In this document: positions 13,863 through 32,688 of the stretch, one piece after another
How positions within the stretch are numbered: the first letter of the stretch is position 1
Layout of the letters: the number at the start of each line of letters is the position of its first letter
Source of the DNA: Hoeflea sp. BAL378
GTDB taxonomy: Bacteria > Pseudomonadota > Alphaproteobacteria > Rhizobiales > Rhizobiaceae
Direction of reading: 5' to 3'
NCBI RefSeq assembly: GCF_000759435.1
Contig: NZ_JRJG01000036.1
Location: 1 to 32,688 of the forward strand
Length of the DNA stretch: 32,688 bases
Translations under genes and position numbers: made by a program
Notes under the pieces: model-generated
Database searches by the model: none
What the model was told of the DNA's origin: nothing
The model's input: the letters and a program-made list of their open reading frames with translations, nothing else

Positions 13863-13875
13863 CGTCATGTTCCTG

Positions 13876-13912
13876 TCGGGGGACGGCGGCGCTCGCCGCC
13901 GCCGTCCCCCGA
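13876..13912 (-). other. Perfect 16-bp intercistronic hairpin between kdpC and kdpD
   Basis: The stem pairs 13876-13891 with 13897-13912 with no mismatch and a 5-base loop. It starts 3 bases after the kdpC stop codon and ends directly against the kdpD ribosome-binding site. No T-run follows, so it is more likely an mRNA-stability or differential-expression element than a true terminator. Confidence 0.7.
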
Positions 13913-13915
13913 TGC

Positions 13916-14467: not shown

Positions 14468-14482
14468 GGTCGTGACCTCCGG

Positions 14483-16165: not shown

Positions 16166-16193
16166 CGGAAAATCTCCGGTCAGGCTTGAAGGA

Positions 16194-16274
16194 TCAGACC
16201 CGGTCGGCGCCGGCGGTCATCACCAGGAGACCCCCGAACACCGCCAGGCCGAGAAGGAAATAGAGATACGTCAT
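16194..16274 (-). CDS. 26-residue single-helix membrane peptide between kdpB and kdpA
   Basis: A 27-codon frame (ATG to TGA) encodes a peptide starting MTYLYFLLGLAVFGGLLV and ending TAGADRV, i.e. one hydrophobic helix with a short polar tail. An AGGAG ribosome-binding site lies 7 bases before the ATG, and it fits exactly between kdpB (17-base gap) and kdpA (28-base gap). It is not KdpF: a KdpF with the expected C-terminus is encoded upstream at 18472-18561. I recall short kdp-linked peptides of similar shape in other genomes but cannot name a family. It may be an accessory lipid-like subunit of the Kdp complex, by analogy with KdpF. Confidence 0.7.
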   Translation of the reverse strand: MTYLYFLLGLAVFGGLLVMTAGADRV

Positions 16275-16291
16275 GTCGTGAACTCCTGTGA

Positions 16292-18364: not shown

Positions 18365-18447
18365 GGATGGCTCCCGTTGAGGACGAAACAAAGGCTCGCG
18401 GCGCTGGCAGGGCCGCGGAGAGGCGCTGAGGGCGCCGGCGAACGGCG

Positions 18448-18470
18448 CGGCCGGACACCCCGCCCGGCCG
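18448..18470 (-). other. Hairpin directly after kdpF
   Basis: A 7-bp perfect stem (18448-18454 with 18464-18470) and 9-base loop begin 1 base past the kdpF stop codon, in the 107-base kdpF-kdpB gap. It has no T-run. It could tune expression of kdpF relative to kdpB; the role is not known. Confidence 0.4.
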
Positions 18471-18471
18471 G

Positions 18472-18561
18472 TCAGAACCGTTCCGGGCGCAGCAGCGCGA
18501 TGAGAAGATAGGCGGTGATGAACAGCGTCACGGCGCCGCCCAGGGCATAGTCGAAAAACAT
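18472..18561 (-). CDS. kdpF: Potassium-transporting ATPase subunit KdpF
   Basis: A 29-residue peptide with one membrane helix: [20 protein letters not shown] at the C-terminal end. The ALLRPERF ending matches the typical KdpF C-terminus (E. coli has YALINAEAF), and the size is the same as E. coli KdpF. KdpF is a small lipid-like stabilising subunit of the Kdp complex. A longer in-frame extension to 18741 is not supported by a ribosome-binding site or by family length. It is the first gene of the kdp cluster, directly downstream of the candidate KdpE box. Confidence 0.9.
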
Positions 18562-18884
18562 GTCGCACCTCGTCTGTTGGGGCGCCGGCGGCGCCACGTC
18601 CCGTGCCGCCGCGCCCTTAGCCCGGTCTGCGACGCCTCGGGCATTCGCAGGATCGGGCCGGCCTGGCACCTGACGCAACCATGCCACGACGCCGCGTAAA
18701 GGTTCGAGACAGGCGAGCCCCCAACAAAATAGGAATCCCATAGGAATTTGCGCCGGGGCGGACGGCCCAACGGCCTCCTCGCCGTCGGCCAGGCTGGGAC
18801 GGTTTCGTCTTGAGCACGATGCGAGAGGCAGGCGGCTCGAGCCTGTCGAGCAGCTTCAGCCACGGCTTCCGCCCCGCGCCGGCG
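18562..18884 (-). promoter_or_regulatory. kdp promoter region
   Basis: This 323-base gap between the PucR-type regulator gene and kdpF carries no convincing gene and should hold the kdp promoter. A TTGTTG -35-like hexamer (18722-18727, - strand) directly abuts the tandem repeat at 18729-18747. A recognisable -10 is missing at 16-18 bases, consistent with an activator-dependent promoter. The leader to kdpF would be about 130 bases. Confidence 0.45.
18729..18747 (-). promoter_or_regulatory. Candidate KdpE box: tandem 8-bp repeat with 11-bp period
   Basis: On the + strand, ATAGGAAT occurs at 18729-18736 and again at 18740-18747, separated by CCC (ATTCCTAT twice on the coding strand of kdp). OmpR/PhoB-family regulators bind tandem direct repeats with this 11-bp spacing. 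The site lies upstream of kdpF and immediately next to a -35-like hexamer. Confidence 0.6.
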
Positions 18885-20849
18885 TCAGCGGGCGGGAGGC
18901 GCGGCTTCGTCGGGGCCGGTCTCGAGCAGATGGGCCAGGCGCAGCGCGATGTGCAGCTCCAGCGCGCGGACCGGGTCGTCCCAGCCGCCGGTGATCTGCC
19001 TTAGCGTGTCGAGCCGCTGGCGGACCGTGTTGATGTGGACGCCGAGAGTGTCGGCGGCGCGCCTGATGTTGTACTGGCCCTCGAGATAGCACAGCAGCGT
19101 CTTTTTCAGCTCCGCCGCCTGCCGCGGCCCGCGTGCGTCGATCGGGCGGAGCATCTGCTCCATGTATCGCGCCAGGCTCGCCGGATCACCGGTCTCGAAG
19201 ATCCGGGCGAAGAAATTGATCTCGGACTGGGCGATGAAACGGTCGAGCGGCTTCATCTTCATCATCACCGTGAGCGCCCTGCTCATCTGCCCGTAGCGGG
19301 CCGAGGCGGCCGTCAGCTCGGGGAACGGATCCGACAGCACGCCGCCCGGCTTCCAGCCTTTCGTGGTCCTTGCAAGCTGCTGCAGGAAGGCGCGCAGCGC
19401 GCCCTCTGAGCCCAGCCCCACATAGGCGTCGTCCAGGAGGTCGACCAGCACGTTGGTTCGCGACGCGCAGTCCTGGATGGCGGCCGAGTGCGCGACCCGG
19501 TCGTGCCGGGGGACGGCGATCAGCGCCAGCATGACCGGCTCGTCGGACGAAAGGCCCAGCCGGTCGCGGACGGCCGAGACCGTCGAGGGGTCGGCGGGCG
19601 TGACGGCGACCAGATGCCGCAGCAGCGTCGACGAGGCGATCAGCTTCTCGGTTTCCCGCTTTTCGTTCCACAGCTTGGCGATCGACAGGGCGACGGCGCT
19701 GCGCTCAAGGTTGCGGATCTCGATGGCGTCGAGTTCGCCCTGATGGCAGACGACCAGGCACTCGCCGCTGCCGATCCAGCCGTGCAGCGCGATCACGCGG
19801 CACTGTTCCTCGGCCGCGGCGTGCATGACCACCGACCGGCCGGTGTGCCGCGACTGTGAGGTCGAGCGGATCAGCGGCGTGGTCTCGAACTCGCCGGATT
19901 TGAGGTCGGCGGCGAAGCGGCCGCGATAGGCGCTCGCGACATATTCGTCGCGGATCCTGAGCTCGTCGTCGAACAGGAAGATGGCGCCTGAGATCTGGTT
20001 GGCCATCCGCTGCAGGAATTTCTGCATCTCGCCGCCGGCGGCGAGCAGCGACGTCATCTCGTCGTGGACCGCCGCCGACGCCTCGACCCGCTGGATGTGT
20101 TCGATCAGCGCATTGCGGTTGCGCTGCGCCTCGGCCAGCGCTTCCGACAGCAGCCGGAACGCGTTGGCGTTGCGCATCGCCACGCCGGCATGCAGCGCGA
20201 AGGAGCCGAGCACCGACATGTTGCGTCCGCTCAGCTTGCGGGCGTAGCGGTCGGCCACGAACAGGAAGCCGTGGACCTCGCCGTCGGCCATGATCGGGAA
20301 CCCCGCCAGCGAGACGATGTTCTCGATGCGGAAGGCCCGGTCGAGCTCGGGCAGGTGCTTGAAGCGGGTGTCGTTGAGATAGTCCTGGGTGTCGAAGAAG
20401 CTCTTCGACTGCATGATCAGGCTGACCGCGCCATATTCGAAATTGCTGGTCATGACGGCGGCAGAGGGCGAGAGATATCCTTCCGAGGCGACCGAGCGGA
20501 ACAGGCCGCTGTCCTCGTCGAGGATCGTCACCCAGGCGAGATTGGCGCCGACAAGGCTGCGGGCCCTGGAGACGATGGTCCGGAACAGGCTCGGCAGTTC
20601 CAGGGTTTTGGACAGGTCATGGGTTGTTTCGATGAGAAGGCTGAGTCCGTTTTCGGACAGCACCGTTTCGCGACGCGACTGGCTGATCTGTAGGATCGTC
20701 GATTGCAGATGATGCAGGTCCTCGGACCGCATCGCGGGCGGCGCAAGCCTCGCGAGCCTGTCCACCGCCGCCACGATGCCGGCCTCGTCCTCCTCGCGGT
20801 TGATCTTCTGGAGGATGTCCAGCACCGCCGTCAGGGCCTCGGTCTCCAA
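18885..20849 (-). CDS. GAF-domain transcriptional regulator with PucR-type C-terminal helix-turn-helix
   Basis: 654 residues from a TTG at 20849, preceded by GGGAG with 6-base spacing. In-frame ATGs at 20927 and 20939 lack ribosome-binding sites and lie in an AT-rich promoter-like stretch. A GAF domain spans about residues 85-230 (LFRTIVSRARSLVGANLAWV ... GFPIMADGEVHGFLFVADRY), then a helical linker (about 230-265), a middle sensor-like region, and at the C-terminus a PucR HTH: LKKTLLCYLEGQYNIRRAAD, then LGVHINTVRQRLDTLRQI. Such proteins are usually local activators of catabolic operons that respond to a ligand at the GAF or middle domain. Its divergent placement next to the transport and CoA-ester cluster at 21110-32688 suggests it controls that cluster. 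Confidence 0.85.
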   Translation of the reverse strand: METEALTAVLDILQKINREEDEAGIVAAVDRLARLAPPAMRSEDLHHLQSTILQISQSRRETVLSENGLSLLIETTHDLSKTLELPSLFRTIVSRARSLVGANLAWVTILDEDSGLFRSVASEGYLSPSAAVMTSNFEYGAVSLIMQSKSFFDTQDYLNDTRFKHLPELDRAFRIENIVSLAGFPIMADGEVHGFLFVADRYARKLSGRNMSVLGSFALHAGVAMRNANAFRLLSEALAEAQRNRNALIEHIQRVEASAAVHDEMTSLLAAGGEMQKFLQRMANQISGAIFLFDDELRIRDEYVASAYRGRFAADLKSGEFETTPLIRSTSQSRHTGRSVVMHAAAEEQCRVIALHGWIGSGECLVVCHQGELDAIEIRNLERSAVALSIAKLWNEKRETEKLIASSTLLRHLVAVTPADPSTVSAVRDRLGLSSDEPVMLALIAVPRHDRVAHSAAIQDCASRTNVLVDLLDDAYVGLGSEGALRAFLQQLARTTKGWKPGGVLSDPFPELTAASARYGQMSRALTVMMKMKPLDRFIAQSEINFFARIFETGDPASLARYMEQMLRPIDARGPRQAAELKKTLLCYLEGQYNIRRAADTLGVHINTVRQRLDTLRQITGGWDDPVRALELHIALRLAHLLETGPDEAAPPAR

Positions 20850-20904
20850 GCGTCTCTCCCATGCTGACCCGGGGCGGTGACCCGGATGCCGGTCCCGTGC
20901 TGCC

Positions 20905-20962
20905 GATCCAGTATATATAGCTGACATAAAATAGCACATCGACTGTAGGTAAAGCACATATA
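20905..20962. promoter_or_regulatory. AT-rich divergent control region with repeated AGCACAT
   Basis: This AT-rich patch in GC-rich surroundings contains AGCACAT at 20933-20939 and again at 20953-20959, same orientation, 20 bp apart (about two helix turns). A TATACT -10-like hexamer for the regulator lies on the - strand at 20910-20915. The repeats are candidate operator half-sites for the divergent regulator. Confidence 0.45.
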
Positions 20963-21109: not shown

Positions 21110-22057
21110 ATGAAGCCCGTCCGGCGCAAGGTGATCATTTCCTGCGCGGTGACCGGCCGGGTCCACACCCCGTCGATGTCCGACAGCCTGCCGTTCACGC
21201 CCGACCAGATCACCAGGCAGGCGGTCGAAGCCGCGCGCGCCGGCGCCTCGATCCTGCATCTTCATGCACGCAATCCCTCCGACGGCAGCCCGACCGACGA
21301 TCCGGCCGTGTTCGACCTGGTCCTTCCCGGGATCGCCGCCGAGACCGACGCCCTGATCGAGATCCCGGCGCCGCGCGACGGCGCCCGGTTCCCGCGCGCC
21401 GTGACCCCCGATTTCTGCTCGATCGACATGGGATCGGTGAATTACTGTTTCAGCCGGGCCGCGCGCGGCGTCTCCGACTGGAAGTTCGCCTGGGAAAAAC
21501 CCTATCTCGAGGCCTCGGAAGACGGGGTTCTGAGGAACAGCTTCCGCGACATCAAATCCGCCCTTGCCCGGTTCGGCGACGGACACGATCCGCGCTACGC
21601 CTTCGCCTGCCATGATCTCGGCCACCTCCACAATCTGGCGCAACTGGTCGACGAGGGGCTGATCAAGGGGCCGCTGTTCCTGCAATGCAGTCTCGGCATC
21701 GCCGGAGGCCTCAATGCGGATCCCGAGAACCTGTTCCTGATCCGCAGCACGGCGGACCGGCTGTTCGGCCGCGGCGCCTATGAATTCTCGGTGCAGGCCG
21801 CCGGCCGCCACCAGATCCCGCTGGCGACCATGGGCGCCATCATGGGCGGACACGTCCGCGTCGGCCTCGGCGACAGCCTGTTCCTGGGCAAGGGCCTGCT
21901 CGCGGCCTCGAGCGCCGCGCAGGTGCTCAAGATCCGCAGGATCCTAGAGGAGCTGTCCTTCGAAATCGCAAGCCCGGAGGAAGCCCGGGAGATCCTTCAG
22001 ATCGAGGGCGGCGGCCAGACCGGCCGGGCCGGAAGGGAGATCGGGCTCAATGGCTGA
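21110..22057 (+). CDS. DUF849 / beta-keto acid cleavage enzyme (BKACE) homologue, divergent active site
   Basis: 315 residues from the ATG at 21110, with GGGA about 9 bases before it; the frame is open further upstream but without family similarity. BKACE enzymes condense a beta-keto acid with acetyl-CoA to give acetoacetate and a new CoA ester, using a zinc ion. Family features seen: AVTGRVHTPSMSDSLPFTP, ILHLHARNPSDG with the His50/His52 metal pair, DMGSVNYCF, and AAGRHQIPLATMGAIMGGHV. Two usual elements are altered. The segment that normally reads GLED (Glu as metal ligand in Kce) is GLGD, and the TTGG/STGG loop after the third strand is replaced by a shorter EIPAPRDGARFPRA stretch. Activity may thus differ. 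It overlaps the next gene by 8 bases. Confidence 0.85.
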   Translation: MKPVRRKVIISCAVTGRVHTPSMSDSLPFTPDQITRQAVEAARAGASILHLHARNPSDGSPTDDPAVFDLVLPGIAAETDALIEIPAPRDGARFPRAVTPDFCSIDMGSVNYCFSRAARGVSDWKFAWEKPYLEASEDGVLRNSFRDIKSALARFGDGHDPRYAFACHDLGHLHNLAQLVDEGLIKGPLFLQCSLGIAGGLNADPENLFLIRSTADRLFGRGAYEFSVQAAGRHQIPLATMGAIMGGHVRVGLGDSLFLGKGLLAASSAAQVLKIRRILEELSFEIASPEEAREILQIEGGGQTGRAGREIGLNG

Positions 22058-23057
22058 GATTCTCTCGATGCTCAGGACAAGCAAGCGTAAGGGCAGGCTG
22101 CTCGAAATCGTGGTGATGGCGGTCACCGTGGCGCTGGTGGCGGCCTTTTCCATCGCCGTCGATGGCTTCGCCACACCCGGCAACCTCGAGATCATCCTGT
22201 CGAACTCGGCGTCGCTGGTGATCCTGGGGTGCGGCATGGCCGTGGTCATCATCTCGCGCGGGCTGGACCTGTCGCTGATCGCCGTGATGGTCGCCGGCGC
22301 GACCACCTTCAGCATCTTCATCAATGCCGACATACCGGTCGTCACCGCGCTTGTGCTGACCGTCGCGGCGATGGCGATGGTGGGCCTGGCGAACGCCTGG
22401 CTGATCGCCTATGTCGAGATCCCGGCGATGCTGGCGACGCTCGCCTCGGCCATGGCCGTCACCGGGTTTTTCCGCTTCGCCATCCTGCGCGGCGAGTTCC
22501 TGCTGCTGCTGTCGAAGGACAATCCGGCGGTGATCTTCCTGTCGGGCGACATCGTGCCGGGCCTGCCGACGCCGGTCGCGCTGATGGTGGCGGCGCTGAT
22601 CGTCACCTGGGTCCTGCTGCGGGGGACGGCGGCGGGCCGGACGATCTACGCGATGGGCGACAATTTCCAGGCGGCGCGCCTGACCGGCCTGCCCGTGCGC
22701 ACCACGACCATCGTCGTCTATGTCTTCGCGGCGATGATGGCGCTCTGCGCCGGGCTGGTGACCTCGGCGGCGAGCGGCGCGGTCGATTTCCGCACGGTCA
22801 CCAACGGCACGCTGCTGTTCGAGGTCGTCCTCGTCGTGGTGCTCGGCGGCATCCCGCTGCGCGGCGGCCGCGGGGGCGTCTGGAACATCGTCATCGGCGT
22901 GGCGCTGATCGCGGTGCTGCGCAACGGCATGACGCTCATGAATTTCACATCCCAGACCCAGGACGTGCTCAAGGGGCTCGTGCTGATGGTTGCGATCGTC
23001 GCAGACAATTATCTCAACCCCAGGGACACGGAAACCGACGCCGTCGGCGATCTCTGA
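22050..23057 (+). CDS. ABC transporter permease, ribose (RbsC) type
   Basis: 335 residues of the BPD_transp_2 family, with about 8-10 hydrophobic helices. The family motifs are AVVIISRGLDLSL (about 64-75), LANAWLIAYVEIPAMLATLA, and the cytoplasmic loop GRTIYAMGDNFQAARLTGLP that couples to the ATPase, followed by VLGGIPLRGGRGG. It forms half of the membrane channel of a sugar-type importer. Its start overlaps the BKACE gene by 8 bases, so translation is probably coupled. Its natural partner is the second permease, which is fused to a propeller (24148-26277). Confidence 0.93.
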   Translation: MAEILSMLRTSKRKGRLLEIVVMAVTVALVAAFSIAVDGFATPGNLEIILSNSASLVILGCGMAVVIISRGLDLSLIAVMVAGATTFSIFINADIPVVTALVLTVAAMAMVGLANAWLIAYVEIPAMLATLASAMAVTGFFRFAILRGEFLLLLSKDNPAVIFLSGDIVPGLPTPVALMVAALIVTWVLLRGTAAGRTIYAMGDNFQAARLTGLPVRTTTIVVYVFAAMMALCAGLVTSAASGAVDFRTVTNGTLLFEVVLVVVLGGIPLRGGRGGVWNIVIGVALIAVLRNGMTLMNFTSQTQDVLKGLVLMVAIVADNYLNPRDTETDAVGDL

Positions 23058-23085
23058 CACGACCGAACCACCAATGGAGGAGACT

Positions 23086-24075
23086 ATGGTGATTAAATTG
23101 GGAAACAAGATCCGCAGTGCCGCGCATGGACTCATGATCGGAGCCGGCGTCCTGCTTGCATCCGGCACGCAGGCATCCGCCGACACCGACATTTCGGGCA
23201 AGAAGGTCGTCTTCGTGCCCATCGCGATGGGAATTTCCCTGACCGAGGGCTGGGCGCGGCGGATGCGCGAACATGCCGACATGCACGGCTACACGATCGA
23301 CGTTCGCGACGCGGCCTTCAACACCGGCGCGATGGCGGAGCTGCTCGCCAAGGCGATCAGCGAGAAGCCCGACGTGCTGGTGGTGCACAATCCGACCGTG
23401 CAGCTCCTGGCGCGCCAGATCAAGCAGGCCGAGTCCGAAGGCATCAAGGTGCTGCAGATCAACCTGCAATCGAACCAGCCGTCGGCGGCTTTCGTCGGCG
23501 CCAACTGGGAGCGCATCGGCCGGGAGATCGCCGAGGACATCGTCAAGGAATGCGGCGAGGGCAGCGGCAAGTCCGGCAAGGTGTCGATCGTGCCCGGCCA
23601 GTTGACTGCGGCCGACAGCGTCATCATGAACGAGGCCGCTTTCAAGGTGTTCGAGGCGCACAAGGAGATCGAGGTCGTCTCCAACCAGGCGTCGGACTGG
23701 GAGCCGGAGAAGGCGCGCCAGATCACCGCCACCGTGCTGCAGCAGCACCCGGACCTCTGCGCCGTCTTCGGCCACTGGGACGTCCACACCATGGGCGCGG
23801 GCAATGCGGTGAAGGACGCCGGCCTTGCCGACAGCGTGCTGGTCTACGCCACCGGCGGCGGCGACGACGTCGCCTGCAAGGCAGTCGAGGACAATGTGCT
23901 CGACCGGGTCTGGAGCTACGACGCCGACGGCCAGGGCCGCGACGCCGGCACGATGGTCGACCTGCTGCTGCAGGGCGCTTCGGGCGCCGACGGGGCGATG
24001 ATGTCGGTCGAATCGCCGATGAAGATCATCAAGGGCGGCGACGCCTACGATCCGGGCCTCTGCTGGAAGATGTAA
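23086..24075 (+). CDS. Periplasmic sugar-type substrate-binding protein of the ABC importer
   Basis: 329 residues from the ATG at 23086, which has a GGAGGAG ribosome-binding site. A signal peptide is present (hydrophobic GLMIGAGVLLASG, likely cut after ASA at residue 32). The mature part shows the Peripla_BP_4 fold: KVVFVPIAMGISLTEGWARR, DVLVVHNPTVQLLARQIKQA, GKVSIVPGQLTAADS, and CAVFGHWDVHTMGAGNAVKD. It would deliver the substrate to the RbsC-like permeases. The ligand is not evident; relatives bind sugars, but the neighbouring CoA-ester genes argue for another small molecule. Two cysteines lie near the C-terminal half and one two residues before the end. A hairpin follows the gene. Confidence 0.92.
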   Translation: MVIKLGNKIRSAAHGLMIGAGVLLASGTQASADTDISGKKVVFVPIAMGISLTEGWARRMREHADMHGYTIDVRDAAFNTGAMAELLAKAISEKPDVLVVHNPTVQLLARQIKQAESEGIKVLQINLQSNQPSAAFVGANWERIGREIAEDIVKECGEGSGKSGKVSIVPGQLTAADSVIMNEAAFKVFEAHKEIEVVSNQASDWEPEKARQITATVLQQHPDLCAVFGHWDVHTMGAGNAVKDAGLADSVLVYATGGGDDVACKAVEDNVLDRVWSYDADGQGRDAGTMVDLLLQGASGADGAMMSVESPMKIIKGGDAYDPGLCWKM

Positions 24076-24097
24076 CCGGCAACCAGAGGCACTCGTT

Positions 24098-24125
24098 CCC
24101 GCAGGGCTGTAGCCGGCCCTGCGGG
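24098..24125 (+). other. Perfect hairpin between binding-protein gene and fused permease gene
   Basis: A 10-bp perfect stem (CCCGCAGGGC/GCCCTGCGGG) with an 8-base loop starts 22 bases after the binding-protein stop. The bases after it are TCCTCCTTG, not a strong T-run. It probably protects the upstream mRNA or partly terminates, giving more binding protein than permease, as in other importer operons. Confidence 0.6.
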
Positions 24126-24147
24126 TCCTCCTTGATGGGACGTATCC

Positions 24148-26277
24148 ATGTCAGCCGATTTCAAGTTCTCCAGTCTGCCGAAGCAGCCGGTCCCGCGGTT
24201 CATGCTGTCGCCGCGGCGCATTCTCGCCGATGTCCTGTCGAGCGGCTGGGTCGAGAGCATGATCCCCTTCCTGGCCTTCGTCTGCGTGGTCGTGGGCGTC
24301 GCCTTGACCACGGAGAACTATTTCGTCGCCTCCAACCTGCGGAATCTCGCGCAGTACTCGGCCGATGGCGGGCTGATCGTGCTCGCCATGCTGATCGTCG
24401 TCGCGGTCGGCGGGATCGATCTGTCGGTGGGCTCGAATTTCGCCATGTCGGCCTTCGTGGCGCTGTTCTGCTTTCACATTCTTGGTCTTCCGGTGCCCGT
24501 GGTGCTGGCGGCAAGCCTCGCCTGCGGCGCCCTGATCGGCGCCACCAACGGCGTGCTCGCCGGCCTGATCGGCTGCGGCGCGCTTTTGACCACGCTTGCC
24601 ACCATGATCACCGTACGCGGCATCTTCACGCTGTCCTCGCAGGCGCAGATGGTGGAGATCTCCACCAGCGCCCGCATCGACGACCTGTGGGACTGGATCG
24701 GCTTCGAGAAGATCCTCACCATGCCGGTCGGCTTCTGGGTGCTGTTCGCCGTGGCGACCCTGATCTTCGTCATGTTCCGGCAGTCGGCCTTCGGCTGGCA
24801 CGTGCTGGCGGTGGGCGGCAACCGCAAGGCGGCGCGCCACGGCGGCATCCGCGTCAAGGCGACGATCTTCCTGTCCTACGTGCTGACCGGCCTGATCGTC
24901 GGCCTGTCGGGCTTCCTGTTCGCCGCCCGCCAGAACAGCATCAGTTCAGATACCGGGATCGGGATGGAGTTCTTCGTGCTGACCGCGCTGGTGGTAGGTC
25001 TCGGCGGGTTCGTGCCTGGCCGCGGCGCCGTGGTGCCGGTGCTGATCGGGTTTGCGACAATTTACCTTTTCAACAATGCGATGATCAATGCGGGGTTTCG
25101 CGGCGATTTCGTCCAGCTCTGCATGGGCGCGATCATCATCGTGATCCTGGCGATCGACGTGAAGTTCCGCAAGAACCGGCACCGCCTTCTGGCCTCGACC
25201 TATCTCGACCCCGTCAAGGTCACGCTCGAGCCCACCAAAGGCATGGCCGGCCTGATGCCGCACGAGAAGGCGCCGAAACTCGCCCAGGCGCGGATCCTCG
25301 GCGCGGGAGACCTCGACGGTCCCGAGGATGTCATCCTCGACCGCGACGGCAATCTCTATTGCGGCAACCGCGACGGGCGGATCCTCAAGCTCTCCGGGCC
25401 GGACCATTCCGAGATCAGCGTCCTGGCCAAGATCGGCGGCCGTCCGCTCGGCCTCGCCTTCGACGCCGAGGACCGGATCGTCGCCTGCGTCGCCGGCATG
25501 GGGCTCCTGCGCGTGACCCTTGACGGCGCCGTCGAACTGCTGACCGACCAGACCGGGCGCAGCCTCATGAGCGTCCAGGACGACACCTCGATCCGCATGG
25601 CCGACGATCTCGACATCGCCCCCGACGGCACGATCTATTTTACCGACGCGACCAAGCGCTACGACATCGACAACTGGGGCCTCGACCTGCTCGAGGGGCG
25701 GCCCAACGGCCGGCTGCTGAGCTACGATCCGAAGACGAAGAAGACGCGTACGGTCTGCGACAACCTGGTGTTTCCGAACGGCGTCTGCGTCACCCATGAC
25801 GGCAGGCATCTTCTGGTGGCGAGCACCTGGGGCTGCTCGATCCTGATCTTCGATCTGGCCGACCTTGCCGCCGGACCGCGGGTCTTCCTCGACGGCCTGC
25901 CCGGCTATCCCGACAACATCAACCGCTCGTCGGACGGCGGCTACTGGATCGCGCTGGCGGGCATGCGCAACGCCATCCTCGACCAGGCGATGAAATATCC
26001 GGGGTTGAGGCAGCGAATGACCAAGCGGGTGCCGCCGACCAACTGGCTGTTCGGCAATCTGAACATCGGTGGCGTGCTCAGGACCGATGGCGCAGGCAGG
26101 ATCGTCGACGCGCTGTGGGATGCGCCGGACGGGCCGCTCTACATGATTACCTCGATGCGCGAGCACGAGGGCGCGCTCTATCTGGGCGGCGTGACCAACG
26201 ACAAGATCGGCCGGCTCGAGCTCGCCGACGCGGATCGGCGCTGGACCGGGCCGCAGAGCTACTGGGGGAAAGGCTAG
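24148..26277 (+). CDS. Fusion: RbsC-type ABC permease plus strictosidine synthase/SMP-30-like beta-propeller
   Basis: 709 residues in one uninterrupted frame. Residues 1-345 are a complete BPD_transp_2 permease: GGIDLSVGS at 88-96, and FGWHVLAVGGNRKAARHGG at 215-233 as the ATPase-coupling loop. Residues about 380-700 are a six-bladed propeller: DGPEDVILDRDGNLYCG, ADDLDIAPDGTIYFTDATKR, NLVFPNGVCVTHDG, LPGYPDNINRSSDGGYW and HEGALYLGGVTNDKIGRL, the pattern of strictosidine-synthase-like/APMAP proteins within the SMP-30/lactonase superfamily. Such enzymes hydrolyse lactones or aryl esters using a central metal. RbsC termini are cytoplasmic in the E. coli protein, so the propeller probably faces the cytoplasm and could act on the solute as it arrives. 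No stop or frameshift separates the halves, so the fusion looks real. Confidence 0.9.
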   Translation: MSADFKFSSLPKQPVPRFMLSPRRILADVLSSGWVESMIPFLAFVCVVVGVALTTENYFVASNLRNLAQYSADGGLIVLAMLIVVAVGGIDLSVGSNFAMSAFVALFCFHILGLPVPVVLAASLACGALIGATNGVLAGLIGCGALLTTLATMITVRGIFTLSSQAQMVEISTSARIDDLWDWIGFEKILTMPVGFWVLFAVATLIFVMFRQSAFGWHVLAVGGNRKAARHGGIRVKATIFLSYVLTGLIVGLSGFLFAARQNSISSDTGIGMEFFVLTALVVGLGGFVPGRGAVVPVLIGFATIYLFNNAMINAGFRGDFVQLCMGAIIIVILAIDVKFRKNRHRLLASTYLDPVKVTLEPTKGMAGLMPHEKAPKLAQARILGAGDLDGPEDVILDRDGNLYCGNRDGRILKLSGPDHSEISVLAKIGGRPLGLAFDAEDRIVACVAGMGLLRVTLDGAVELLTDQTGRSLMSVQDDTSIRMADDLDIAPDGTIYFTDATKRYDIDNWGLDLLEGRPNGRLLSYDPKTKKTRTVCDNLVFPNGVCVTHDGRHLLVASTWGCSILIFDLADLAAGPRVFLDGLPGYPDNINRSSDGGYWIALAGMRNAILDQAMKYPGLRQRMTKRVPPTNWLFGNLNIGGVLRTDGAGRIVDALWDAPDGPLYMITSMREHEGALYLGGVTNDKIGRLELADADRRWTGPQSYWGKG

Positions 26278-26280
26278 GTC

Positions 26281-27324
26281 ATGTTTTTCAGATCCAGACG
26301 AGAGGCACCGCCGGCGATGACCCTGGAGGGCGTTCTCGGCCCCAACACGACCATCGACGATGCCGCGGGCATCAAGGTCGAAGCCCCGCAGGCGCTGTGC
26401 GTGGTGGATGACGCCCTCCTGCTCCTGAGCTCGGGCAACACGGTTCTGGCGATATCCCGCTGGGGGGACGAGCCCCGGCTCTGGTGCAGCTTCGACCAGC
26501 CGGTGACGGCGCTCTGCGCGAGCCCGGCTGGAGCAATCGGCATCGGCCTGGCCGACGGCAGCTTCGCCGTGCGTGACAAGGCGGGATCGGCGCTGGCTGG
26601 CTGGGGACAGCCGGAGGGTCTTGCCTCGGTGACCGACTGCCTGTTCCTCTCGGAAGAGGAGATCGCCATTGTCGACAGCGGCTACCGTGCGGGCGAGGAC
26701 ATCCTGTCGCGTGCGCCCTGGGACGAGGCCGGGCGCGGCCAGGTGGTGGCGATCAGCCGTAACGGCGCGACGCGGCAATTGGCGGCCGGTCTGCATTGCC
26801 CGATGGGGCTGGCCCGCGACGCGGGCGGCGAGCTGATCGTCAGCCTGCTCGAACGCGCGGCCATCGTCGATCTCGCGGGCAAGGTCCGGCAGTCGGGATT
26901 TCCGGCCTATCTCGGCCGCATCCGCGCCACCGGGACGGGCTATCTCCTCTCCTGCCTGTCGCGGCGCGACCCGCTGATCGAATTTCTCAAGACCGAGACG
27001 GAATTCGTGGCCGAGATGAAGGCCACGATCGATCCCCGTCACTGGCTCTCGCCCCGCGCCAATCCCGAGTTCAGCCACGACTTCCCGATCGAGCTCGGCG
27101 CCACGCGGCTGTTCGGGGAGATCAAGCCCTGGGCTCCGTCCTTTTCCTACGGCCTCGTGCTTGCGACCGACAAGGCCTTCATCCCCACCTCTTCCGCCCA
27201 TTCCCGCGCCAACGGCGCACGCCATGCGATCAGCGATGCCGTCGAGTGGAACGGCGACGTGATCGCGGTGAGCCGGGCCAGCGGCGAAGTCCTCCGCTTC
27301 TCGATTGCGAGGGAATCCGCATGA
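26281..27324 (+). CDS. Second beta-propeller-like protein, divergent strictosidine synthase/SMP-30 relative
   Basis: 347 residues, no signal peptide and no membrane helix. It starts 3 bases after the fused permease gene and overlaps the ATPase gene by 4 bases (ATGA), so it belongs to the transporter operon. Repeating strands resemble a propeller (LLLLSSGNTVLAISR, HCPMGLARDAGGELIVSLLE). A segment FPAYLGRIRATGTGYLLSCLSRRD lines up by eye with the GYPDNI...GGYW region of the preceding protein, but the metal-type Asp-Asn is replaced. It is probably a paralogue of the fused propeller with changed or lost catalysis, acting perhaps as a binding or regulatory partner. Function is unknown. Confidence 0.72.
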   Translation: MFFRSRREAPPAMTLEGVLGPNTTIDDAAGIKVEAPQALCVVDDALLLLSSGNTVLAISRWGDEPRLWCSFDQPVTALCASPAGAIGIGLADGSFAVRDKAGSALAGWGQPEGLASVTDCLFLSEEEIAIVDSGYRAGEDILSRAPWDEAGRGQVVAISRNGATRQLAAGLHCPMGLARDAGGELIVSLLERAAIVDLAGKVRQSGFPAYLGRIRATGTGYLLSCLSRRDPLIEFLKTETEFVAEMKATIDPRHWLSPRANPEFSHDFPIELGATRLFGEIKPWAPSFSYGLVLATDKAFIPTSSAHSRANGARHAISDAVEWNGDVIAVSRASGEVLRFSIARESA

Positions 27325-28817
27325 GCCGCCAGCCGATCATCAGCCTCGAAAACGTCACCAAGAGCTACGGCGGCATCAACGCGCTGGAGGACGCCAATTT
27401 CGAGCTCTATCCGGGCGAGATCCACGCGCTCGCCGGCGAGAATGGCGCCGGCAAGTCGACCCTGTGCAAGCTGATCGCCGGCGTCATCGCCCCGAGCGCG
27501 GGGACCTTGCGCATCAATGGCGAGGTGGTGAAGTTCTCCGCGCCCAAGGACGCGAGCCGGCACGGCATCTCGATGGTCTACCAGGAGACCAGCCTGGTGC
27601 CGCAGCTCACCGTGGCGCAGAACATGGTGCTGGGCCGCGAGAGCGCGTTCAACTCGGTGCGCAAGGTGCGCAATTCGGCCCGGCAGGTGCTGCAGCGGCT
27701 GAATTTCAAGGTCGACCCGTCGCAGCTCGCCGGCACCCTGTCCACCGCCAAACGGCAGATGGTGGAAATCGCCCGGGCTGTGCTGAACCAGGCCCGCGTG
27801 ATCATCCTCGACGAGCCGACGGCGGCGCTGACGCCCGAGGAGACCGACCATCTGTTCGACCTGATGCGGACCCTGCAGGCCGACGGCGTCGCCATGATCT
27901 TCATCTCGCATGCGCTCGAGGAGGCGCTCAACCATTCCGACCGGATCTCGGTGCTGCGCAACGGCCGGCTGATGGTCACGGGCGAGGCATCCGCCTTCGA
28001 CCGCAAGCGCCTCATTCACCACATGATCGGCGAGGAGCTGAACGAGCGGTTGCACGTGCCCAGGGCCCCGCATGCCGTGCGCTCGGCGCTGCCGGTGCTG
28101 AGAGTCGAGAACATCCGCATGGGCGCCATGGTCAACAACATGTCGTTCTCGATCTTTCCCGGCCAGATCACCGGCATCGCCGGCCTGATCGGTTCGGGGC
28201 GGAGCGAGGTCGCCAAGGTCATCATGGGCCACACCAAGCGCAATTTTGGGGGCGGCCGGATCTGGCTCGACGGCCGCGAGGTGCGCTACAGTCTCCCCGC
28301 CCAGGCGGTCGCCGACGGCATCGCCTATGTCAGCGAGGACCGCAAGCTCGACGGCTTCTTCGACACGCTCAATGTGAGCGAGAATATCGGGCTCGGCTGG
28401 CTCGCCAAGTTCGGCCGCCGGCGTGTGCTTGCGCCGCTTCAGAAGATGCGCGCGCTGTCGCGGGAGTGGGAGGGCAAGCTGTCGATCCGCTCCATCGGCA
28501 AGGACCAGTCGGTGCTGTATCTGTCGGGCGGCAACCAGCAGAAGGTGGTGATCGCCAAGTCCCTGGTGCAGGAGCCCAGGCTGGTGATCTTCGACGAGCC
28601 CACCCGCGGCGTCGATGTGGGCGCCATCGCCGAGATCCGGCAGATCGTCCGCCAATTCGCCGAGAGCGGGGCGGGCGTGATCCTGATCTCCTCCTACCTG
28701 CCGGAGATCCTCGACCTGTCGGACCGGATCCTGGTCGCCAAGAGCGGCACCATCGTCGCCGAATTTGCCCGCGCGGATGCGACGGCGGAGAAGATCCTGC
28801 ATGCTGCAATCCATTGA
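27321..28817 (+). CDS. Sugar-type ABC transporter ATP-binding protein (RbsA/MglA-like, two ATPase domains)
   Basis: 498 residues with two ABC domains, as in RbsA. Domain 1 has Walker A AGENGAGKST (38-47), a signature of the form LSTAKRQMVEIARA and Walker B VIILDEPTAAL. Domain 2 begins near residue 255, with GLIGSGRSEVAK at the Walker A position (degenerate, as is usual in this subfamily), YLSGGNQQKVVIAKSL and VIFDEPTRGVDVGA. It energises the importer formed by the two permeases and the binding protein. The ATG overlaps the stop of the preceding gene (ATGA). Confidence 0.95.
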   Translation: MSRQPIISLENVTKSYGGINALEDANFELYPGEIHALAGENGAGKSTLCKLIAGVIAPSAGTLRINGEVVKFSAPKDASRHGISMVYQETSLVPQLTVAQNMVLGRESAFNSVRKVRNSARQVLQRLNFKVDPSQLAGTLSTAKRQMVEIARAVLNQARVIILDEPTAALTPEETDHLFDLMRTLQADGVAMIFISHALEEALNHSDRISVLRNGRLMVTGEASAFDRKRLIHHMIGEELNERLHVPRAPHAVRSALPVLRVENIRMGAMVNNMSFSIFPGQITGIAGLIGSGRSEVAKVIMGHTKRNFGGGRIWLDGREVRYSLPAQAVADGIAYVSEDRKLDGFFDTLNVSENIGLGWLAKFGRRRVLAPLQKMRALSREWEGKLSIRSIGKDQSVLYLSGGNQQKVVIAKSLVQEPRLVIFDEPTRGVDVGAIAEIRQIVRQFAESGAGVILISSYLPEILDLSDRILVAKSGTIVAEFARADATAEKILHAAIH

Positions 28818-28892
28818 GGTCACGAGCGGCCTGACCGTGTAGAAGGCCCCGGCCAGGTCCGATTGGACCGACTGAAACACAGGAGAAATGTC

Positions 28893-30080
28893 TTGAGAGA
28901 AGCAGTCATCGTCAGCACCGCCCGCACCGGGATGGGCAAGTCCTATCGCGGCAGCCTGAACGCCATCAAGTCGCCGACGCTCACCGGCCATGTGCTCAGG
29001 CATGCGATCGAGCGGGCGGGCGTCGAGCCGGGCGAGATCGAGGATTTCGTGCTCGGCACCGTGCTCGGCGCGGGCACCGCGGGCATGAACCTCGCCCGCA
29101 ACGCCGTCTTTGCCGCCGGCTCGCCGGTGACGATCTCCGGGCAGACCATGGACCGCCAGTGCGCCTCGGGCCTGATGGCGGTGGCGACCGCGGCCAAGCA
29201 GATCATGGTCGACGGCATGGATGTCGTCGCCGCCGGCGGCCAGGAGAACATCTCCGCCGTGCAGGATCAGTATTTCCGCTGGGTCCAGGCCGAGGCCGAT
29301 CCGACCGTGACCGGCCATGTGCCGCATGCCTACATGCCGATGCTGCAGACGGCCGAATTCGTCGCGAAGAAATTCGGCGTGAGCCGGCAGGCGCAGGACG
29401 AGTACGCGCTGCAATCCCAGCTCCGCACCGCCAGGGCCCAGGCCGCAGGCCTCCTCGACGACGAGATCGTGCCGATCACCGCGACGATGATGGTCAAGGA
29501 CAAGATCACCGGCGAGGTGACCGGCCAAGAGGTGACGCTCGACCGGGACGAGGGCAACCGGCCGCAGACGACGCTCGAGTCGCTTGCCGGGCTGAACCCG
29601 GTGATCGAGGGCGGCGTCATCACCGCCGGCAATGCCAGCCAGCTCTCCGACGGCGCCTCGGCCTGCATCCTGATGGACTCGAAGCTTGCCGAACGGCGCG
29701 GCCTCAGGCCGCTCGGCATCTATCGCGGCATGGCGGTGGCCGGTTGTCCGCCCGAGGAGATGGGCATCGGCCCGGTCCATGCGGTGCCGAAGCTGCTCGA
29801 GCGGCATGGCCTGAAGATCGGCGACATCGGCCTCTGGGAGCTCAACGAGGCCTTCGCGGTGCAGGCGCTCTACTGCCGCGATCGCCTCGGCATCGATCCG
29901 GAGATCTACAACGTCAACGGCGGCGGCATCTCCATCGGCCATCCCTACGGCATGACCGGCGCGCGCCTGGTGGGCCATGCGCTGATCGAGGGCCGGCGTC
30001 GCGGCGTCAGATACGTGGTCGTCACCATGTGCATCGGCGGCGGCATGGGTGCTGCGGGGCTGTTCGAAGTCAACCAGTGA
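28893..30080 (+). CDS. Thiolase family protein (acetyl-CoA acyltransferase/acetyltransferase)
   Basis: 395 residues from a TTG at 28893, which has AGGAG 7 bases upstream; the nearer ATG at 28888 is out of frame and meets a stop after two codons, overlapping the TTG. The thiolase nucleophile is Cys90 ([13 protein letters not shown]). The NEAFA motif, [16 protein letters not shown] with the catalytic His, and the second catalytic Cys in [10 protein letters not shown] are all present. Thiolases cleave beta-ketoacyl-CoA with CoA, or condense two acyl-CoAs. Next to an acyl-CoA synthetase and an HSD17B4-like dehydrogenase, a degradative role is likely. The gap to the ATPase gene is 75 bases. Confidence 0.94.
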
Positions 30081-30146
30081 GACATCTCCGCGCCGCAAGC
30101 GGCGGTTTGGCTCGAAAGAGCAGGAAAGAGTGCGGGAAGAACCCAA

Positions 30147-31805
30147 GTGACAGCTCAAGACATGACCTCGGCCGCGGCGTCGGCCGCAGCGCCTGTGCCG
30201 GACGGCGGCGTTGCTATCGACGGGGCGATGCAGCCCTTCGGCCTGACGCTCGACAGGTTTCTCAGCCATGCCGCCAAGTGGCACCAGGACGCCGAGGTGG
30301 TGACCGCCGGGCCGGACGGGGCCGTCGCGTGCGTCTCCTATGCCGGGTTGAAGCAGAGGGCGCAGGGCGTCTCCCGCATCCTCGCCGGCCTCGGCGTCGC
30401 GCCCGGGGCCCGGGTGGCGACGCTGGCCTGGAACACCCAGGCGCATCTCGAGGCCTGGTACGGCATCATGGGCATGGGGGCTGCCTGCCACACGCTCAAT
30501 CCGCGCCTGACCGCCGAACAATCGGGCGCCATGCTGCGCCAGTCCGGCGCCCGGATCCTCATCGTCGCCGTCGATCTCATGCCGCTCGCCGGCCAGATCG
30601 CGGCGCATGCGCCTGGCGTGACCCGGATCCTGGTGATCGACGGCGCGGCCGGCGTCGGGCCGGCGGAAGACCAAGCCCTGCCGGTGGCGGCGCTCGAACC
30701 GATGGCAGGCGCGGGTGGCGAGCCGGTCGTCTGGGGAGCGTTCGAGGAGACCACGCCGTCGGGACTCTGCTTCACCTCCGGCACCACCGGCGCGCCCAAG
30801 GGCGTCACCTACACCCACCGTTCGAGCTATCTCCACACTCTCAGGGCGCTGCAGGCCGATGTCCTCGGCATCACCCGTCTGGATGCGGTGCTGGCCGCGG
30901 TGCCGATGTTTCACGCCAATGCCTGGGGACTGCCATTCGCCGCGCCCGCCGTCGGCGCAAAGCTGGTGCTGCCGGGGCGGTGGACCGATGGCGCGAGCCT
31001 GGCGCGGCTGATCGTCTCCGAAGGCGTGACGGTCGCGGCGGGCGTTCCCACCGTCTGGCTCGGGCTGGTCGAGCATCTGGAAGCCAATGGTGGCGAGGTG
31101 CCGAGCCTTGAGCGCATCCTCGTCGGCGGGGCGCCGCTGGCGCCGGCTCTGATGGAGCGGATCGAGCGCCGGCTGGGCGTGACGGTGCAGACAAGCTGGG
31201 GCATGACCGAACTGTCGCCGTCGGGAACCATGGCGCTGCCGGGCGACCCCGGCAGGACCGCCCCGGTGTCGGGCCGGCCGGCGGTGGGCCTCGACCTGCT
31301 CCTGACCGACGCCGAAGGCCGGGCGCTCGCAGAGCAGCGAAACACGGAAGGCCATCTCCGGGTCAAGGGCGCTGCCGTGGTCGAGCGCTATCTCGGCGAC
31401 AGCGAGCCCGCCACCGACGCGGACGGCTGGTTCGACACCGGCGATCTGGCGCGGATCGACGCTGAGGGAAACCTGATCATCACCGGCCGGGCCAAGGATC
31501 TCATCAAGTCGGGCGGCGAATGGATCAACCCCGCCGAAATCGAGGCCATCATCGGTGCGCTGCCCGAGATCTCGCTGGCGGCCGTCATCGGCCGGGCCGA
31601 TGCGAAATGGGGCGAGCGGCCGGTGCTGCTGGTGACGGTCCGCAAGGACCAGGCGATCGGCGACGAGGCGCTGCTGGCCGCGCTTACCGGCCGGGTCGCC
31701 TCCTGGTGGGTGCCCGACGCGGTCATAAGGCTCGAGGACATGCCGCGGGCGGCCACCGGCAAGATCGACAAGCTGCGCCTGAAAAAGCTGTATGGCGGCG
31801 CTTGA
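30147..31805 (+). CDS. AMP-binding acyl-CoA synthetase (fatty-acid/DmdB-like CoA ligase)
   Basis: 552 residues from a GTG at 30147 with GGGAAG upstream; an ATG at 30162 is an alternative but lacks a ribosome-binding site. Motifs of the adenylate-forming ligases are in order: phosphate loop CFTSGTTGAPKGVTYTHRS (208-226), TSWGMTELSP, GWFDTGDLARID, and the catalytic Lys539 in PRAATGKIDKLRLKK. The segment TLAWNTQAHLEAWYGIMGMG resembles medium/long-chain acyl-CoA and methylmercaptopropionyl-CoA ligases. It activates a carboxylic acid with ATP and CoA. Substrate unknown; the acid may come from the propeller hydrolase or arrive through the importer. Confidence 0.93.
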   Translation: MTAQDMTSAAASAAAPVPDGGVAIDGAMQPFGLTLDRFLSHAAKWHQDAEVVTAGPDGAVACVSYAGLKQRAQGVSRILAGLGVAPGARVATLAWNTQAHLEAWYGIMGMGAACHTLNPRLTAEQSGAMLRQSGARILIVAVDLMPLAGQIAAHAPGVTRILVIDGAAGVGPAEDQALPVAALEPMAGAGGEPVVWGAFEETTPSGLCFTSGTTGAPKGVTYTHRSSYLHTLRALQADVLGITRLDAVLAAVPMFHANAWGLPFAAPAVGAKLVLPGRWTDGASLARLIVSEGVTVAAGVPTVWLGLVEHLEANGGEVPSLERILVGGAPLAPALMERIERRLGVTVQTSWGMTELSPSGTMALPGDPGRTAPVSGRPAVGLDLLLTDAEGRALAEQRNTEGHLRVKGAAVVERYLGDSEPATDADGWFDTGDLARIDAEGNLIITGRAKDLIKSGGEWINPAEIEAIIGALPEISLAAVIGRADAKWGERPVLLVTVRKDQAIGDEALLAALTGRVASWWVPDAVIRLEDMPRAATGKIDKLRLKKLYGGA

Positions 31806-31844
31806 CCTTGCCGCTGCGTCGGGGTTCTGGTCCGCGCAGGCGGA

Positions 31845-31865
31845 GCGGCGCCCGCGCGGCGCCGC
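31845..31865 (+). other. Intercistronic hairpin between ligase and dehydrogenase genes
   Basis: A perfect 8-bp GC stem (GCGGCGCC/GGCGCCGC) with a 5-base loop sits in the 135-base gap. There is no T-run. It may be a processing or partial termination site, or the dehydrogenase may have its own promoter in the AT-richer stretch after it. Confidence 0.35.
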
Positions 31866-31940
31866 GGCCGGGGCTCGTCAAGGAATTCACGCTTGATCGC
31901 GTAGGACACTGAGCGCACCCGCTCAACAAAGGAGACAGGA

Positions 31941-32688
31941 ATGAAGCTGAAGGATCGCACCGCAATCGTCACCGGAGCCGGCGGGGGGCTGGGCAGATGC
32001 CATGCGCTGCTGCTCGCCCGGCAGGGCGCCCGGGTCGTCGTCAACGACATGAACGCCGAGAACGCCGAGCGCGTCGCCGCGGAGATCAGGGCTGCGGGCG
32101 GAGAGGCGATCGGGGTTGCCGCCTCCGTCACCGACGAGGCCGCGGTTGCCGCCATGATCGACCGGACCATGGCCGAATGGGGCCGGATCGACATCCTGAT
32201 CAACAATGCCGGCATCCTGCGCGACAAGAGCTTTGCCAAGATGGAGATCGCCGATTTCCGTGCCGTGGTCGATGTCCACCTGATGGGGGCGGTGATCTGC
32301 TCCAAGGCGGTCTGGGAGATCATGCGCAAGCAGGCCCATGGCCGCATCGTCATGACCACGTCGTCCTCCGGGCTCTACGGCAATTTCGGCCAGTCCAACT
32401 ACGGCGCCGCCAAGATGGCATTGGTCGGCCTGATGCAGACCCTGTCGCTGGAAGGCGAGAAATACGGCATCCGCGTCAACTGCCTGGCGCCCACGGCGGC
32501 GACCCAGATGACCGAGGGCGTGCTGACGCCGGAAGTGCTCGCGCAGCTTGCGCCGGAGCTGGTGAGCCCTGGGCTGCTGGCGCTGGTGGGCGCCGACGCG
32601 CCGACGCGGGCGATCCTGTGCGCGGGCGCCGGTCATTTCGCCCGCGCCAACGTGACGCTGACCCAGGGCGTCTATATCGGCGGGGGCG
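31941..32688 (+). CDS. SDR family oxidoreductase, HSD17B4/3-hydroxyacyl-CoA dehydrogenase-like (3' end outside window)
   Basis: The frame is open from the ATG at 31941 (GGAGACAGGA upstream) to the window end, giving 249 residues. The Rossmann motif is TGAGGGLG (11-18); Asp36 at the end of the second strand favours NAD(H) over NADP(H). NNAG (88-91), a catalytic serine in TTSSSGLYG and Tyr154/Lys158 (YGAAK) are present. The stretch GNFGQSNYGAAKMALVGLMQ resembles the dehydrogenase part of multifunctional enzyme type 2 (HSD17B4). These act on (3R)-hydroxyacyl-CoA. A MaoC-type hydratase would be expected next, but lies outside. It fits a beta-oxidation-like route with the ligase and thiolase. Confidence 0.92.
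   Translation, partial: MKLKDRTAIVTGAGGGLGRCHALLLARQGARVVVNDMNAENAERVAAEIRAAGGEAIGVAASVTDEAAVAAMIDRTMAEWGRIDILINNAGILRDKSFAKMEIADFRAVVDVHLMGAVICSKAVWEIMRKQAHGRIVMTTSSSGLYGNFGQSNYGAAKMALVGLMQTLSLEGEKYGIRVNCLAPTAATQMTEGVLTPEVLAQLAPELVSPGLLALVGADAPTRAILCAGAGHFARANVTLTQGVYIGGG

Follow-up and report, generated by a model that had tools for sequence, protein, structure and literature searches.

Deoxyribonate is catabolized in some bacteria by a short-chain dehydrogenase/reductase (SDR) together with a beta-keto acid cleavage enzyme (BKACE), accompanied in P. simiae by a lactonase, and a route through a CoA-synthetase, a dehydrogenase, and a thiolase has been proposed for Klebsiella (Price et al. 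2019, PMC6365646; this and the papers cited below are represented here by extracts). Phloroglucinol catabolism likewise uses a dehydrogenase and a BKACE-family lyase, and its gene cluster holds a thiolase homologue (PMC10470551). Here, we describe a gene cluster of Hoeflea sp. BAL378 in which BKACE-fold, thiolase, ligase, and SDR genes adjoin a ribose-type ATP-binding cassette (ABC) importer with a propeller domain fused to one permease. The cluster lies on contig 36 (NZ_JRJG01000036.1) of the 5.48 Mb genome, and the stretch analysed, bases 1-32688 of that contig (32,688 nucleotides), is referred to below as the window. Comparison across genomes indicates that an importer with a built-in, probable lactonase is real and recurrent. 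With moderate confidence, we favour a pathway in which the cluster imports a 3-hydroxy acid in the form of its lactone or a small ester, hydrolyses it at the membrane, and oxidises the product through the ligase, SDR, and thiolase.

Genes were called from open reading frames (ORFs) and from Pfam and NCBIfam profile searches. Nine plus-strand genes between 21110 and 32688 form one run with a divergent GAF/PucR regulator alongside, an arrangement already described in an earlier reading of the DNA letters (hereafter the sequence-only reading), all of whose named genes were recovered at the same place and on the same strand. Gaps within the run range from -8 to +135 bp. The contig ends inside the SDR gene, so genes further downstream are unseen. 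A pattern scan of 28817-28893 gave no terminator-like or promoter-like site, which is weak evidence because the region as a whole yielded fewer such sites than its own shuffles. The features are, in order:

18885..20930, minus strand: regulator with GAF and PucR-type helix-turn-helix domains (Pfam GAF_2 6.3e-14, HTH_30 1e-13); start uncertain, most homologues aligning only from about residue 59-84 of the 730-residue ORF
21110..22057, plus strand: BKACE-fold protein, DUF849 (Pfam BKACE, PF05853, 267 bits; NF053538 371.5 bits, cut-off 430)
22050..23057, plus strand: ribose-type ABC permease 1, unfused (BPD_transp_2 1.1e-26)
23086..24075, plus strand: periplasmic binding protein (Peripla_BP_4 2.8e-41, for a gene call starting at 23080)
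24148..26277, plus strand: permease 2 (about residues 1-345) with fused propeller (about residues 346-709) (BPD_transp_2, Str_synth, SGL, SSL_N)
25183..26277, plus strand: propeller domain of the fusion, with four putative metal ligands and a fold like those of TGW6 and strictosidine synthase
25324-25326, 25603-25605, 25777-25779, and 25912-25914, plus strand: putative metal ligands Glu393, Asp486, Asn544, and Asp589, respectively
26281..27324, plus strand: second propeller (profile comparison with the fused propeller; AlphaFold propeller)
27321..28817, plus strand: tandem ABC ATPase, ribose/xylose type (ABC_tran, two stretches)
28893..30080, plus strand: thiolase, acetyl-CoA C-acyltransferase (Thiolase_N/C; TIGR01930 397.5 bits; longest ORF from 28863)
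30147..31805, plus strand: AMP-forming acyl-CoA ligase (AMP-binding 8.5e-64; motifs present)
31941..32688, plus strand: SDR dehydrogenase, truncated at its 3' end by the contig boundary (adh_short 5.2e-53)

The importer belongs to the ribose type by its family content, as Peripla_BP_4, BPD_transp_2, and tandem ABC_tran domains are all present; its ATPase scores best against the NCBI models PRK13549 (xylose, 457 bits) and RbsA (456 bits), each time under the model's own cut-off. The propeller at the C-terminus of permease 2 is closest in both sequence and fold, among solved proteins, to TGW6 (8kg3) and then to strictosidine synthases, followed in fold by the RPA3624 lactonase and DFPase. Glu393, Asn544, and Asp589 are present in 59 of 59 copies, and position 486 is aspartate in 54 and asparagine in five. 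Strictosidine-synthase-like proteins that retain four metal ligands are described as likely hydrolases (PMC4215206), and a Deinococcus propeller lactonase has a Glu-Asn-Asn-Asp metal site (PMC12362111). As the kept four-ligand pattern agrees with these hydrolases, the fused propeller is probably a metal-dependent lactonase or esterase located in the cytoplasm. The location is suggested by the segment KFRKNRHR directly after the last permease helix: under the positive-inside rule, a helix flank rich in lysine and arginine marks the cytoplasmic side.

Searches of Pfam and NCBIfam at E 0.001 gave no match for the 26281..27324 gene, which the sequence-only reading had counted as a second propeller protein. 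That assignment proved sound. Profile comparison identifies the protein as a paralogue of the fused propeller, aligned over most of its length (98.9% probability, E 2.4e-17), and AlphaFold gives it a propeller fold with a predicted local distance difference test (pLDDT) score of 85.8. Its ligand positions have diverged: among 56 copies, aspartate at 589 and aspartate or asparagine at 486 occur in none and asparagine at 544 in three, while position 393 is acidic in 43 (aspartate in 37, glutamate in six). One metal ligand may therefore persist in many copies, though not in that of the window, where glutamine, threonine, methionine, and glycine at 393, 486, 544, and 589 change all four. Judged by these residues, the second propeller is probably a pseudoenzyme; that it is a further lactonase of the usual metal type was rejected, given the loss of most ligand positions across the 56 copies.

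The five importer genes stand in one order (permease, binding protein, fused permease, second propeller, ATPase) in 14 genome loci of a wider clade (L038, L053-L065) and in 12 annotated plasmid loci, with the sole exception of L066, where the record ends after the second propeller and the ATPase is not covered; a thirteenth plasmid locus (L106) is without annotation. At E <= 1e-100, the fused permease was found in 35 of 297 genomes of the order, 10 of 385 of the class, and 24 of 151 of the family (own genome included), most of the matches listed being about 36-47% identical to the window copy. The own genome holds a second copy at 44%. Close homologues (61-93%) occur in 28 named loci, all of them presumably alphaproteobacterial and the nearest from a Hoeflea, and the fusion is free of internal stops in each. 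Four of these loci (L072, L074, L084, L085) also carry a second, more distant propeller-fused importer (31-55% by gene part) upstream of the window-type one. The fusion is annotated as 'SMP-30/gluconolactonase/LRE family protein' in 10 of 15 plasmid records, and no description of it or of the window's gene set was found by title or abstract opening in the open-access literature; as far as seen, the protein is known to databases but unstudied.

Close homologues of the window's acyl-CoA genes recur near this importer. Among the 28 loci, the SDR (57-91%) is found in 15, the thiolase (64-94%) in 12, of which the L075 copy is a remnant, and the ligase (66-86%) in 11; a BKACE (58-87%) is adjacent in seven and a regulator homologue (45-85%) is present in 10. 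Thiolase, ligase, and SDR lie together within 10 kb of the fused permease in 11 loci and in several arrangements: thiolase-ligase-SDR downstream, as in the window (L072, L073, L099); ligase-SDR-thiolase downstream (L081, L082, L084); ligase-thiolase-SDR upstream on the same strand (L078, L098); the three genes upstream on the opposite strand (L076, L089); or split around the importer (L087). This repeated co-location supports one pathway, the idea that the sequence-only reading had tied to finding fused-permease homologues near these three genes. The conserved synteny that it proposed as a check is seen in the importer order and in the recurring linkage with the cassette, and the exact full set of importer, BKACE, full thiolase, ligase, and SDR recurs in only three of the 28 loci (L072, L073, and L099, the last from Hoeflea marina DSM 16791). 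Eight loci also have a member of a TetR-type gene family close to the importer, an assignment checked with Pfam for two members. A glycine-cleavage-type gene (L085) and carboxylase and HMGL-like genes (L091) were left unused as evidence because they were not found shared between loci.

Other loci hold parts of the set. Genome G777 has SDR (79%) and ligase (70%) homologues upstream of the importer, and G804 has the importer, with no ligase match exceeding 42% at E 1e-100. At L079, L080, and L096, a distant SDR (27-32%) accompanies an intact BKACE and the importer; neither a ligase nor a thiolase match was found in the stretch examined. In genome G879, the L199 locus places an altered BKACE near a thiolase (84%) and an SDR (79%) with a carboxylesterase between them; a 42% copy of the propeller importer lies elsewhere in that genome, where no ligase match exceeds 41% at E 1e-100. 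Carboxylesterases 63-71% identical to one another stand near the same SDR at L075 14653-16257, L077 4057-5742, and L199 11668-13260, and no close ligase homologue was found near them in these three loci. At L075, 16277-16684 is a thiolase remnant that matches only residues 11-101 and 371-404 of the window thiolase.

The three CoA-ester enzymes of the window are recognizable by profile and motif. The thiolase reaches 397.5 bits against TIGR01930 (cut-off 240.55) and contains QCASG, GHPYG, and CIGGG, the Cys/His/Cys catalytic motifs; its start may be the TTG at 28893, preceded by AGGAGA as judged by eye. The ligase carries AMP-forming ligase motifs, and a search of plasmids gave no match at E 1e-140. 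The SDR ends at residue 249 of about 298 (close homologues have 290-300 codons) and contains TGAGGGLG, NNAG, and YGAAK, motifs of its family. Its description as HSD17B4-like in the sequence-only reading was not confirmed, since its best model, PRK07791, gives 191.8 bits for the cut window copy and 189 for the complete L072 copy against a cut-off of 373. SDR homologues occur in 29 plasmid records, with 12 among the matches listed at 54-68% identity; thiolases, acyl-CoA dehydrogenases, or AMP ligases lie nearby in the five contexts viewed, which gave no clue to the substrate.

The BKACE-fold protein retains the PF05853 domain and has lost much of the canonical site. The Zn-ligand glutamate is replaced by Gly254, the catalytic tyrosine by His168 (equated with Tyr173 of PdKce by alignment and a manual residue count), and the TTGG loop is gone; His50, His52, Arg250, and Asp255 remain. 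The window, L072, L073, and L099 proteins read RVGLGD and those of L075 and L199 RVGLAD, where others read RVGLED or RVGIED. All six have histidine in place of the catalytic tyrosine and no TTGG-type loop, and L075 and L199 additionally have His52 changed to aspartate. Of 33 other family members sampled, 29 came from further genomes of the order, three from the genome of the window, and one from L088; the glutamate is kept in all 33, the tyrosine in 32 (one phenylalanine), and a TTGG-type loop in 32. Two further BKACE genes in the genome of the window, at G000:C6:42411-43334 and C135:11092-12009 (L137, L138), encode the canonical Zn-ligand residues.

Alteration of the site follows gene context. 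All six BKACEs found near thiolase/SDR genes are altered, and the importer-linked proteins of L079, L080, and L096, which have no close thiolase or SDR homologues beside them, are intact at the glutamate, tyrosine, and loop; these three score 491-506 bits against NF053538 (3,5-dioxohexanoate BKACE), above the cut-off of 430 that the window protein misses. In a tree, a single clade (99/100) unites eight importer-linked BKACEs, and five altered ones form a nested clade within it (100/99); L199, the sixth, was found later and is not included in this tree. As the altered copies in the tree are one clade, the link between loss of the site and the thiolase and SDR genes possibly rests on one event. 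Single-pair Nei-Gojobori estimates of the ratio of nonsynonymous to synonymous substitution rates (dN/dS) are 0.16 to L072 and 0.18 to L073, close to the ligase and permease 1 values; to L099 the estimate is 0.30. On this measure the gene is under purifying selection despite its lost canonical site, and a decaying pseudogene was rejected. A role as the carbon-cleaving step in the window was likewise rejected, given the loss of the Zn-ligand glutamate, the catalytic tyrosine, and the TTGG loop. BsfD is a DUF849 enzyme with different chemistry, with Zn ligands His48, His50, and Glu247, and the BKACE tyrosine is thought to be catalytic (PMC12871164, preprint); extracts of a further study state that some DUF849 groups have no BKACE activity (PMC4922564).

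In the wider clade, one sibling offers a candidate substrate. Around the propeller-fused importer of L060, 2480-13723 is a probable mevalonate degradation group with a MocR-type regulator gene upstream. A degradative 3-hydroxy-3-methylglutaryl-CoA (HMG-CoA) reductase, a CoA-transferase, and an enoyl-CoA hydratase lie on one side of the importer, and an HMG-CoA lyase (411 bits, cut-off 246) adjoins the ATPase on the other, on the opposite strand. The reductase is upstream of the importer in both L060 and L071 (431 and 434 bits, cut-off 260), and in L071, from Shinella sp. HZN7, it is directly 5' of permease 1. Ruegeria and Tistrella have a related reductase gene followed by a tripartite ATP-independent periplasmic (TRAP) importer. 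Given the position of the importer between degradative HMG-CoA reductase and lyase, that sibling probably imports mevalonate or its lactone; an open-access literature search on mevalonate catabolism gave nothing. At L038, L054, L055, and L058, a ligase gene (56-67% identity to the L085 copy) paired with an enoyl-CoA hydratase gene (47-63%) stands just past the ATPase. Elsewhere in the window, minus-strand ORFs at 10456-18568 resemble, by eye, an operon of kdp potassium-transport genes together with two-component regulators.

In the pathway that we favour, the substrate would be the lactone, or a small ester, of a 3-hydroxy acid; it would enter by way of the binding protein and the ribose-type importer, and the propeller on permease 2 would hydrolyse it with a bound metal, so that hydrolysis on entry could trap the substrate as the acid. 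The second propeller would act as a structural or regulatory partner. The ligase would then form the CoA ester of the freed acid, the SDR would oxidise the 3-hydroxyacyl-CoA, and the thiolase would cleave the 3-ketoacyl-CoA to acetyl-CoA and a shorter acyl-CoA. The pair of SDR and intact BKACE found at some related loci may perform equivalent carbon chemistry on the free acid. Both enzyme sets can achieve the same shortening (compare extracts of PMC6365646 and PMC10470551), which points to a 3-hydroxy acid as the shared intermediate. The ligase-SDR-thiolase route may have replaced an older SDR-BKACE route, with the BKACE of the window's lineage kept under selection after losing its canonical site. 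Gene content, recurrence, kept and lost residues, and purifying selection form the sequence basis; cytoplasmic placement, hydrolysis, step order, and the 3-hydroxy acid intermediate are what we infer. Of the steps put forward in the sequence-only reading, import, hydrolysis, CoA activation, oxidation of the 3-hydroxy group, and thiolytic cleavage still stand as the best reading; cleavage by the BKACE is not supported, given its altered active site. The substrate may be a 2-deoxyaldonolactone, the lactone of a 3,5-oxygenated hexanoate, or a compound resembling mevalonolactone; the individual compounds considered were triacetic acid lactone, deoxyribonolactone, and mevalonolactone.

Several observations weigh against this pathway. 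In 13 of the 28 close loci, no close homologue (57% or more) of the SDR, thiolase, or ligase was found in the stretch examined, although three of these (L083, L092, L093) are short contigs and some of the 13 carry distant homologues (27-37%). Beside the L199 genes there is a branched-chain-type ABC importer and no propeller importer within 20 kb. AlphaFold models of the whole fusion are confident for the propeller and poor for the permease part, so placement of the propeller rests on the charge rule and on general knowledge of the family. No glycerate kinase was found among the ten window genes scanned (the rest of the genome was not searched), which counts against deoxyribonate itself as the substrate. 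One Rhizobium plasmid has no importer annotated between related HMG-CoA reductase and lyase genes, and beyond close relatives the neighbours of the importer are many other genes. The pairing with acyl-CoA enzymes, which the sequence-only reading had singled out, does recur, and its enrichment is not significant: a match to at least one of 16 CoA-ester enzyme proteins occurs at 8 of 14 wider-clade genome loci and at 4 of 18 unfused ribose-type importers (Fisher p = 0.07). The controls were up to three best-ranked importers from each of seven of the same genomes, two of them on stretches under 20 kb, and all query proteins came from the window or other fused-importer loci, which biases the comparison in favour of enrichment. 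At least one such match occurs at 5 of 13 plasmid loci, a figure that is partly circular because four of the five contain seed sequences. A general enrichment near the wider importer clade was therefore not upheld, and the link has good support among close relatives and is no more than suggestive in the wider family.

Other explanations were weighed as well. A tentative one, possible and clearly less probable than the pathway above, pictures an import-and-cut machine in which an active propeller lactonase, part of the permease, and its dead twin are placed where the importer opens into the cytoplasm, which would couple the uptake of lactones to their hydrolysis; in this picture the DUF849 protein, its Zn site rebuilt (possibly with three histidines, or two histidines and an aspartate), has acquired a new reaction after the CoA-dependent route replaced the BKACE route. 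We regard as unlikely that the importer is an ordinary sugar importer whose propeller is a non-enzymatic sensor or scaffold, with the acyl-CoA genes a separate unit downstream by chance. The ribose-type binding protein and permeases, the lack of any CoA-enzyme match at 6 of 14 genome and 8 of 13 plasmid loci of the wider clade, and a xylA gene about 4 kb from one locus would fit such an importer, but metal ligands retained in every one of 59 fused propellers, thiolase, ligase, and SDR homologues linked to the importer repeatedly and in changing arrangements, and a sibling importer within a mevalonate-type gene group would not.

Less likely again is the oxidative deoxyribonate/deoxyribonolactone pathway of Price et al., with an ABC importer replacing the transporters of the major facilitator superfamily (MFS). 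Compared by description, the window has the same kinds of enzymes as both published variants, and a ribose-type importer suits a polar sugar lactone. Neither a CoA-transferase nor the glycerate kinase is among the ten genes scanned, however, the window BKACE is non-canonical, and the related intact BKACEs pass the 3,5-dioxohexanoate cut-off of NCBIfam (491-506 vs 430). Least probable in our estimate is that the window BKACE still cleaves a beta-keto acid with another set of residues and that both routes run in parallel. Purifying selection (dN/dS 0.16-0.30), the retained His50, His52, Arg250, and Asp255, and the position of the gene at the head of the run speak for this; against it, the glutamate, tyrosine, and loop are changed in six of six altered proteins and kept in 33, 32, and 32 of 33 elsewhere, and DUF849 groups lacking BKACE activity are reported in the extracts of PMC4922564.

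If the favoured pathway is correct, transporters of this family would bear the first enzyme of the catabolic route on the channel protein itself and would include a conserved pair of enzyme and pseudoenzyme, and the cluster would provide a handle on how Alphaproteobacteria of sea and soil take up lactones and hydroxy acids. A direct route to a substrate test would be the mevalonate-type sibling. In this lineage, one way of shortening a 3-hydroxy acid seems to have been exchanged for another, chemically equivalent one, and the old enzyme was altered and not lost.

Among known systems, the deoxyribonate pathways resemble the window in enzyme kinds, with a lactonase followed by SDR and BKACE or by CoA-synthetase, hydroxyacyl-CoA dehydrogenase, and thiolase. 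According to the extracts of PMC6365646, they rely on MFS transporters (P. simiae, Klebsiella), a separate lactonase, and a glycerate kinase, whereas in the window an ABC importer bears the fused propeller and the site of the BKACE is altered. Like PdKce (8RIP) and the triacetate acetoacetate-lyase CsTAL, the window protein belongs to the BKACE family (PF05853), its fold being assumed from the family; unlike them, it has its Zn-ligand glutamate and catalytic tyrosine replaced and the loop missing. BsfD, with tyrosine changed to phenylalanine, keeps the His-His-Glu ligands (PMC12871164, preprint, in extract), and the window protein has lost the glutamate as well. The importer shares its binding protein, permease, and tandem ATPase families with the Rbs, Ara, Als, and Xyl importers and leaves their NCBIfam cut-offs unreached; unlike those systems, its permease 2 bears a propeller, and a paralogue of that propeller adjoins it. 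N6P hydrolases of the strictosidine-synthase-like/SMP-30 group (TGW6, RPA3624, DFPase) have the same fold and four putative metal ligands. The Deinococcus Cu/Zn-SOD-propeller lactonase is a natural fusion too, with a partner that, in the extracts of PMC12362111, is not a transporter; the window propeller, unlike the N6P hydrolases, is fused to an ABC permease.

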